This document shows positions 43,602 to 45,637 of a DNA stretch of 64,000 nucleotides, piece after piece (within the stretch, counting starts at the first letter, position 1; every line of letters starts with the position of its first letter). The position numbers and the translations under genes were made by a program. The notes under the pieces were generated by a model. The model was not told the DNA's origin. It saw nothing but the letters and a program-made list of their open reading frames with translations, and searched no databases. Origin of the DNA: Beijerinckiaceae bacterium (GTDB lineage: Bacteria; Pseudomonadota; Alphaproteobacteria; Rhizobiales; Beijerinckiaceae); assembly GCA_947476075.1 (NCBI GenBank), contig CANJPM010000001.1, forward strand, positions 1-64,000. Direction: 5' to 3'.

Positions 43602-44402
43602 TCAGAGGAAGTTATTGGGCCAGATAATGCTGCGCCACATATGCGCCGACGGGCTCGTATCAAAGCCCAAACCTTCTTCGGGCTGACGGAAACAGCGGCC
43701 GATCACGTCTTCGAATTCGCGCACGTCGACAATTGCGTTGGGGTCAAACGCGTAGAGATCGTTGGCCGTGACCAGGCGCGCCGCCATGTAGAATTTGTGG
43801 CTGCGGGCGTAATCGGCAGCCTGTGCGATATAGGGCGGGGGCGTGTAGTTTTCGCCAAACGCGCGCAGGTAGAGATCGGGATATTCATAGCCCGTGTCGG
43901 GATCGGGGTAGAAGCGCAGCGCCTGATGATAGCGCACGGCGAACGCCACTTCTTCGTCCACGTAAGGCTCAATCAACTGCGCTCCGTAATAGCCGTGGTC
44001 GGAGCGCACATGGCAGACGACGGCTATGTCGTGAAGCAGGCAGGCGAGCACGATTTTGTCGGGCAGGCCGCCGCGCATGGCAAGCGCCGCGCTCTGCAAC
44101 AAATGCGTGCCGCCGCGCCGGTTGAGGAGAATGCGGCGCTCGAAATAATCGAGCAATGTCGGCCTGGCGGGCATGGCCGGCAGGCGCGGCTCCTCGTGCA
44201 TCAGGTAGAGCCCCTCGGGAGGGCTGAAGCCGCCGGCCGCCGTCAGCCCCACTTTGGCGAAATAGGGTGTCATGGCCTTGCGGTCGATGAGCGAGAGCAT
44301 GGCCTTCTCGATCAGCTCGTCCTTGTCCTCGACGCTCATGCCGGGAACCGCCTGACCGCGGGCTATGGCCAGAGCCTGCGTTACAAGTTCTTCCTGAGTC
44401 AT
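43602..44402 (-). CDS. HD-domain protein, hypothetical
   Basis: GGTHLLQSAALAMRGGLPDKIVLACLLHDIAVVCHVRSDHGYYGAQLI; HD pair plus downstream H residues. Confidence 0.7.
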   Translation of the reverse strand: MTQEELVTQALAIARGQAVPGMSVEDKDELIEKAMLSLIDRKAMTPYFAKVGLTAAGGFSPPEGLYLMHEEPRLPAMPARPTLLDYFERRILLNRRGGTHLLQSAALAMRGGLPDKIVLACLLHDIAVVCHVRSDHGYYGAQLIEPYVDEEVAFAVRYHQALRFYPDPDTGYEYPDLYLRAFGENYTPPPYIAQAADYARSHKFYMAARLVTANDLYAFDPNAIVDVREFEDVIGRCFRQPEEGLGFDTSPSAHMWRSIIWPNNFL

Positions 44403-44521
44403 GGCGTTTCTCCGCAGGACAGCTGCGCGTGACAGTCGCGCGTTACGATTGATCCAGCTATACAGCGACAGCGGATGCGCAGGCCAGTCTATTGAAGGCG
44501 GCGCCAAAGGCGGAGCGACTT

Positions 44522-45637
44522 ATGCCTGATCTGGTGCAGCTGGGCGAAGACCTGCGGAAGATTGATCGGCTGATCATGGATCTGGTCAAGCGGCGGATGG
44601 ACGTCGCCCATCTCGTCGCGCAGGAAAAGCAGCGCACCGGCGGGGTGATGTATCGCCCCGACATCGAGGACCAGCGCATCGCCCAAATCGGGCAGCACGC
44701 GCAGCGGATCGGGCTTAATCCGCATATGGCGCGGGCGCTTTTGTATTTTCTCATCGCCGAATCCTGCAAGGAGCAGACGATCCTGCTCGAATCGCAGGCC
44801 GGCGCAGCCACAACGCCCGAGGCCGAACGGCTGAAGGACAATCTCCTGATCCTGACGCAAACGGTCGCCAGCTCCTATGACGAGCGCGATGAAGGGACGA
44901 AATTGGCCAGCCAGGCCTTCGCCGCCTATGAGCTCGATCTGATTCGCACCGAAGCCGCAGCGCTCCCCATGCGTGGGCTCGCGCTCGATCTGGGCTGCGC
45001 GACCGGGCGAATTGCGCTTGAGCTGGGAGCCTCGTTCGCGCAAGCGGCGGGCTATGATTTAAGCCCCCACATGGTCGAGGCCGCCCGCGCCAACGCCCGC
45101 ACGCTTGGCGCCACCAACATCGCCTTCGCGCAGCTCGATCTTGACATGCAGGCGCTGCCCCATGCCGATTCCAGCGCGTCGTTTGTCGTGATGAATCTGG
45201 GCACGGCCAGCGACGTCAGCAATTTGCCGAAGGTGTTAGCAGAGATCGCCCGCGTGCTGGCGCCGGGCGGACGCTTTCTGCTGACGTTCTACAATGCCGA
45301 CGCTCTGCTTTATAAGATGGGCTTCCTGCCATGGGTGGCGAGCCTGGAGGCGGTGGTCAACCCATACACGAATTGTCTCGACGTAAAGATTGGCGGCACG
45401 CCGATGCCGGTGCATGCCCAGCTCTATTCAGAGGCGCAGGCCCGCGCTTTGATGCCGGAAGCTCTGTGCGTGGACAATGTGACCAGCTTCCCGCAGATCG
45501 CAGCCATCATGCCAGACGAAGTGCTGGGCGACGTCAAAGTGCGCGCCACCATCGACAGGCTGGATCGCGAATTGGCCAAAGGCGCGGATGGTTCGCACGC
45601 CGGCGCCTATCTGGTGGTGCGCGGCGCGAAGCAATAG
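44522..45637 (+). CDS. chorismate-mutase-like (AroQ type) domain fused to class I SAM-dependent methyltransferase
   Basis: N-term LRKIDRLIMDLVKRRMDVAHLVAQEKQRTGGVMYRPDIEDQRIAQIGQHAQRIGL...AESCKEQ; C-term LALDLGCATGRIALELGASFAQAAGYDLSPHMVEAARANA...EIARVLAPGGRFLLTFYN. Confidence 0.75.
   Translation: MPDLVQLGEDLRKIDRLIMDLVKRRMDVAHLVAQEKQRTGGVMYRPDIEDQRIAQIGQHAQRIGLNPHMARALLYFLIAESCKEQTILLESQAGAATTPEAERLKDNLLILTQTVASSYDERDEGTKLASQAFAAYELDLIRTEAAALPMRGLALDLGCATGRIALELGASFAQAAGYDLSPHMVEAARANARTLGATNIAFAQLDLDMQALPHADSSASFVVMNLGTASDVSNLPKVLAEIARVLAPGGRFLLTFYNADALLYKMGFLPWVASLEAVVNPYTNCLDVKIGGTPMPVHAQLYSEAQARALMPEALCVDNVTSFPQIAAIMPDEVLGDVKVRATIDRLDRELAKGADGSHAGAYLVVRGAKQ

Follow-up and report, generated by a model that had tools for sequence, protein, structure and literature searches.

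Phenylalanine and tyrosine synthesis depends on chorismate mutase (CM) for an essential step. The enzyme is a standard textbook case in catalysis, and its pocket, rich in arginines, is considered almost invariable. In the AroQ-alpha CMs, exemplified by the N-terminal domains of E. coli PheA and TyrA (PF01817), a three-helix domain is placed N-terminal to another enzyme, and covalent joining of an AroQ domain to a second enzyme is likewise found in CM-PDT, CM-PDH, CM-DAHP synthase and an exported CM-cyclohexadienyl dehydratase (CM-CDT) (PMC10520331). CM-CDT fusions are very rare and lineage-restricted (PMC10520331), and the fusion described here resembles them in this respect. However, the partners in the known CM fusions belong to the same pathway as the mutase, whereas the AroQ domain considered here is joined to a methyltransferase, which is no enzyme of the aromatic pathway and for which a role in it is not obvious. 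Such a CM-methyltransferase fusion was not found in the open literature searched.

The fusion gene lies in the window, i.e. the whole analysed stretch of 64,000 nucleotides of a Beijerinckiaceae genome, at 44522..45637 on the + strand, where it starts with ATG and encodes 371 amino acids plus stop; orthologues are known. Residues 1-92 (44522..44797, +) form an AroQ-type chorismate mutase domain, as assigned by CM_2, alignments and an AF2 model of this domain, and are followed by a poorly conserved linker (residues 93-150; 44798..44971, +) and a class I SAM-dependent methyltransferase domain (residues 151-371; 44972..45634, +), delimited by Methyltransf_25 and conservation. The HMM searches against PF01817 and methyltransferase families that had been proposed in the initial annotation gave matches well over the cut-off of 27 bits for both halves: CM_2 covers residues 11-85 with 49.8 bits (E 3.9e-13) and Methyltransf_25 residues 155-250 with 66.2 bits (E 4.5e-18). 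Since both scores are far above the cut-offs, the two domains are genuine by homology, and the combination of a CM-like domain with a SAM methyltransferase in one conserved reading frame, already noticed in the initial annotation, is borne out. Invariant columns make up 83% of the CM domain, 33% of the linker, 55% of the methyltransferase core and 93% of residues 251-291, while pairwise dN/dS amounts to 0.04-0.10 for the CM domain, 0.06-0.22 for the methyltransferase core plus cap and 0.18-0.54 for the linker. Both domains are under purifying selection, and neither is decaying. In our reading, which we consider likely to be correct, the cell has no chorismate mutase other than this protein, which replaced the usual enzyme of the genus in the ancestor of the clade.

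The methyltransferase domain carries motif I (LDLGCATG) and the acidic residue D179 and shares the SAM-binding Rossmann core with generic class I methyltransferases (ArsM/UbiE/YcgJ-like, Methyltransf_25/11). It differs from these by a distinctive, near-invariant segment following the core (residues 251-291, RFLLTFYNADALLYKMGFLPWVASLEAVVNPYTNCLDVKIG), which likely forms the substrate pocket. The best full-length match to the domain comes from Nonomuraea, a protein with 28% identity and an uninformative annotation; class-wide genome searches returned generic Rossmann cores only, and no close unfused relative was found. In NCBIfam, both halves of the fusion gave sub-threshold matches only, with the methyltransferase below every equivalog cut-off, so it belongs to no named equivalog. 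A PADLOC mad2 match (57 bits) overlaps the methyltransferase domain only and was judged generic. The substrate is probably a small molecule. Direct chemical logic for the fusion would be offered by CmoA, which uses prephenate and SAM (PMC7496830, PMC12783734) and in which a role of Arg199 has been described (PMC3663124): the CM domain would make prephenate, and the second domain would carboxylate SAM, giving a self-contained carboxy-SAM synthase. In one low-reliability alignment, an invariant Arg308 indeed falls on CmoA Arg199, yet by expected secondary structure this residue would fit a later helix. Moreover, the hhalign alignment to the CmoA profile spans the generic Rossmann core only and leaves the Arg199 region unaligned, and the NCBIfam families that matched at E below 1e-6 do not include CmoA. 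CmoA membership was thus not supported, and a carboxy-SAM synthase appears extremely improbable.

Loss of the arginine encoded at EcCM position 11 severely damages the E. coli enzyme. For a comparison of the pocket, the CM domain was mapped onto E. coli CM (EcCM) using mafft (with E. coli PheA and TyrA), hhalign (E. coli PheA) and hmmsearch (M. tuberculosis CM), and all three alignments agree, ungapped through helix 1. The active-site residues of EcCM are Arg11', Arg28, Lys39, Asp48, Arg51, Glu52, Ser84 and Gln88, and the polar active-site residues of CM_2 domains have been described as highly conserved (PMC5526877). As in other AroQ-alpha CMs, Arg28, Lys39, Glu52, Ser84 and Gln88 have equivalents in the fusion (R25, K36, E49, S81 and Q85), which are invariant across the seven aligned sequences. 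KRRM (with R25), VAQEK (K36) and SCKEQ (S81, Q85), which had been pointed out as AroQ landmarks, are accordingly placed alike by the alignments. In contrast to the AroQ-alpha CMs, the inter-subunit catalytic arginine of EcCM, Arg11' (in LREKISALD), corresponds to Gly8 of LGEDLRKID, a glycine invariant in the seven aligned sequences, and Arg51 to Ile48, or Val in one orthologue (L024), so that this arginine is lost in 7/7. Neither arginine is thus retained in any orthologue, and homology to the family stands. Hence, the proposed landmark LRKID does not contain the catalytic arginine, its Arg lying four residues after Gly8 at the position of EcCM Ser15; in YRPDIE, the Glu does match EcCM Glu52, but the Arg51 position is occupied by Ile/Val. 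Residue 12, at the Ser15 position, is Arg in six rows of the alignment and Lys in one, and EcCM Asp48 is replaced by R45. Ser15 of EcCM is given as supporting inhibitor binding (PMC5526877). From these alignments, R12 (or K12) and R45 may compensate for the lost Arg11' and Arg51. Loss of active-site residues across homologues, regarded beforehand as counter-evidence to a CM assignment, therefore applies to two arginines but not to the equivalents of Arg28, Lys39, Glu52 and Gln88. With two active-site arginines lost, the sequence by itself does not guarantee mutase activity.

In the CM_2 search, the fusion was found in 8 of the 51 genomes of the genus (G000, which contains the window, and G001, G007, G021, G023, G335, G342 and G347), which gives seven orthologue copies outside the window genome, one of them cut by a contig end. 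A whole-genome protein search returned full-length matches with 75-92% identity in four members of the genus. None of the 42 other genera sampled in the family contained a fusion carrier when 397 family genomes from 43 genera were searched with the CM-domain profile; one genome of another genus gave a marginal, partial match to it (E 6e-4, residues 14-63). The fusion was also absent from the order- and class-level genome samples, and viral contigs contained no relatives of its CM domain. The fusion clade is a small group of uncultured Beijerinckiaceae in which the only recognisable CM left is a fusion lacking two catalytic arginines.

A CM_2 protein is present in 50 of the 51 genus genomes, as the fusion in 8 and as an ordinary CM in 42, the single genome without any being 77% complete. 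The ordinary CM (~286 aa) shares with the fusion its presumed reaction, its slot in the pathway and an architecture of CM_2 plus C-terminal extension, but it has the canonical Arg11 and Arg51 and a different C-terminal stretch. The two are mutually exclusive (Fisher p = 1.9e-9, a value that ignores phylogeny and, given a single origin, is to be taken as one event and not eight). In the window genome, the fusion is the sole CM_2 protein, and neither a full-length ordinary CM query nor AroH (PF07736) matched anything in the eight fusion genomes, all of them draft metagenome assemblies with a completeness of 76-100%. All eight have kept prephenate dehydratase, and none of the dehydratase frames carries a mutase domain. 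At the loci read with their surroundings, the ordinary CM gene adjoins metX and is followed by hisC and tyrA (metX><CM-hisC-tyrA); in L092 and L094, for instance, a roughly 850-bp CM gene sits between metX and hisC. Five fusion genomes have the tyrA locus assembled (L107-L111); in these, metX, hisC and tyrA retain their order and orientation and the CM gene is gone, the metX-hisC match spacing being 151-279 bp versus about 1.0-1.1 kb with CM. In a tree of metX plus hisC, these five genomes are monophyletic (98% ultrafast bootstrap), and a single replacement event therefore suffices. Because ordinary CM and AroH are absent, the operon gene is lost and a prephenate-requiring dehydratase is kept, the fusion most likely supplies the chorismate mutase. 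It represents a clean case of a multidomain protein taking over from an essential gene, whose former position in the operon is still recognisable as a gap. As separate observations, the C-terminal stretch of the ordinary CM (L094:8928-9779 and equivalents) comprises ~190 conserved residues (RFHFGFTVPY...) without Pfam match, and two genomes carry, beside the ordinary CM, an extra CM_2 match in an open frame of about 100 aa (L035, G024:C3; L036, G022:C1), and these short matches score higher (77 bits) than any other in the genus.

The initial annotation had considered either that the protein is bifunctional in handling a chorismate-derived metabolite or that its CM fold serves solely in binding or dimerisation, and the distribution of CMs together with the clean operon loss favours a housekeeping CM over both. 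A catalytically dead CM fold could serve the methyltransferase as dimerisation or ligand-binding module, e.g. as a sensor of chorismate, prephenate or an aromatic amino acid, with the real mutase going unrecognised elsewhere in the genome. Such a role would fit the finding that no orthologue has kept Arg11' or Arg51, but is rather unlikely in view of eight genomes without any other CM_2 or CM_1 protein, of which all retain the dehydratase and five tyrA, and of five invariant active-site equivalents that would be needless in a dead domain. For the housekeeping CM, doubt comes mainly from the two lost arginines, which put enzymatic activity in question, and from the completeness of the draft genomes, which may also hold an unrecognised, very divergent mutase.

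Structure prediction is compatible with the domain assignment. The AF2 model of the CM domain (pLDDT 60.7) places helices at residues 4-39, 46-62 and 67-95, i.e. in the AroQ helix order, and AroQ chorismate mutases or PchB account for all of its 13 top-ranking PDB fold matches, none of which is significant (best E 0.19); this moderate-confidence model is consistent with, and not proof of, an AroQ fold. A full-length model from seven close homologues reached a mean pLDDT of 38.7 and was kept out of the fold search. The top, non-significant match of the CM-only model is PchB, and the RRMD and IAxxxxEQ stretches of the fusion presumably resemble this enzyme too, so that an isochorismate pyruvate lyase could be envisaged whose product salicylate would subsequently be methylated by the second domain. 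However, the fusion has kept the equivalent of EcCM Glu52, which binds the hydroxyl group of chorismate and is not known to have a counterpart in PchB. The pyruvate-lyase role, also raised initially, is further made less likely because eight genomes would then be left without a chorismate mutase, and altogether it seems very improbable.

For the fusion as housekeeping CM, the following course can be proposed. The N-terminal AroQ domain would pair with that of a second copy to an all-helical dimer, which would bind chorismate and convert it into prephenate, feeding prephenate dehydratase and, where present, TyrA. R25, K36, E49, S81 and Q85 would take their AroQ roles, and the nearby charges of R12 (Lys in one orthologue) and R45 might stand in for the missing arginines. 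In the clade ancestor, the fusion would have taken over and the usual CM gene would have been lost from the metX><CM-hisC-tyrA operon. The C-terminal domain would be a SAM methyltransferase maintained by selection, tethered through a flexible linker and probably acting on a small molecule. Most likely, the protein is a relocated and altered housekeeping CM that happens to carry a methyltransferase. A more elaborate scheme, in which a rewired CM with the Arg11'/Arg51 charges moved by about one helical turn to R12/K12 and R45 displaced the housekeeping enzyme, and the methyltransferase modifies a metabolite derived from prephenate or chorismate, or else produces carboxy-SAM, thereby coupling SAM status to aromatic biosynthesis, is doubtful at present and clearly improbable as a whole. 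As the clade appears to depend on a CM without two pocket arginines, pocket requirements become directly testable.

Prephenate dehydrogenase (tyrA, PF02153) is present in five fusion genomes and was not found in the other three, namely the window genome and its two closest relatives (G021, G023). Possible reasons are that these bacteria are auxotrophic for tyrosine or make it by another route, or that their assemblies share a gap. With tyrA not found, the aromatic pathway of this subclade may be reduced.

Upstream of the fusion, a gene for a 266-aa HD-domain protein (43602..44402, - strand; PF01966 with 22.4 bits at a cut-off of 22) is oriented divergently at a distance of 119 bp, in agreement with the approximately 120 bp noted before. 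Joint conservation of both genes, for which a survey had been suggested, holds for six of the eight fusion genomes, in which they are adjacent, but not for G021 and G023, from which the HD gene is missing. Many genomes lacking the fusion have HD homologues, located at other loci; owing to this wide occurrence, the HD gene is no functional marker, and it was rejected as functional partner. A -10-like element, CAGCTATACAGC (44455..44466, + strand), was recognised by eye 5' of the fusion in the intergenic comparison and is conserved in 6/6 homologous loci compared, including those that lack the HD gene; hence, it is probably the fusion gene's own promoter. On its other flank, the fusion is neighboured by smc in G000 and G021 and by a threonine-synthase-like gene (first residues) in G007, and it has no stable operon partner. 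In two non-fusion genomes, the HD-domain gene is present in two tandem copies (G024:C1:831414-833172 and G022:C1:2112020-2113761).
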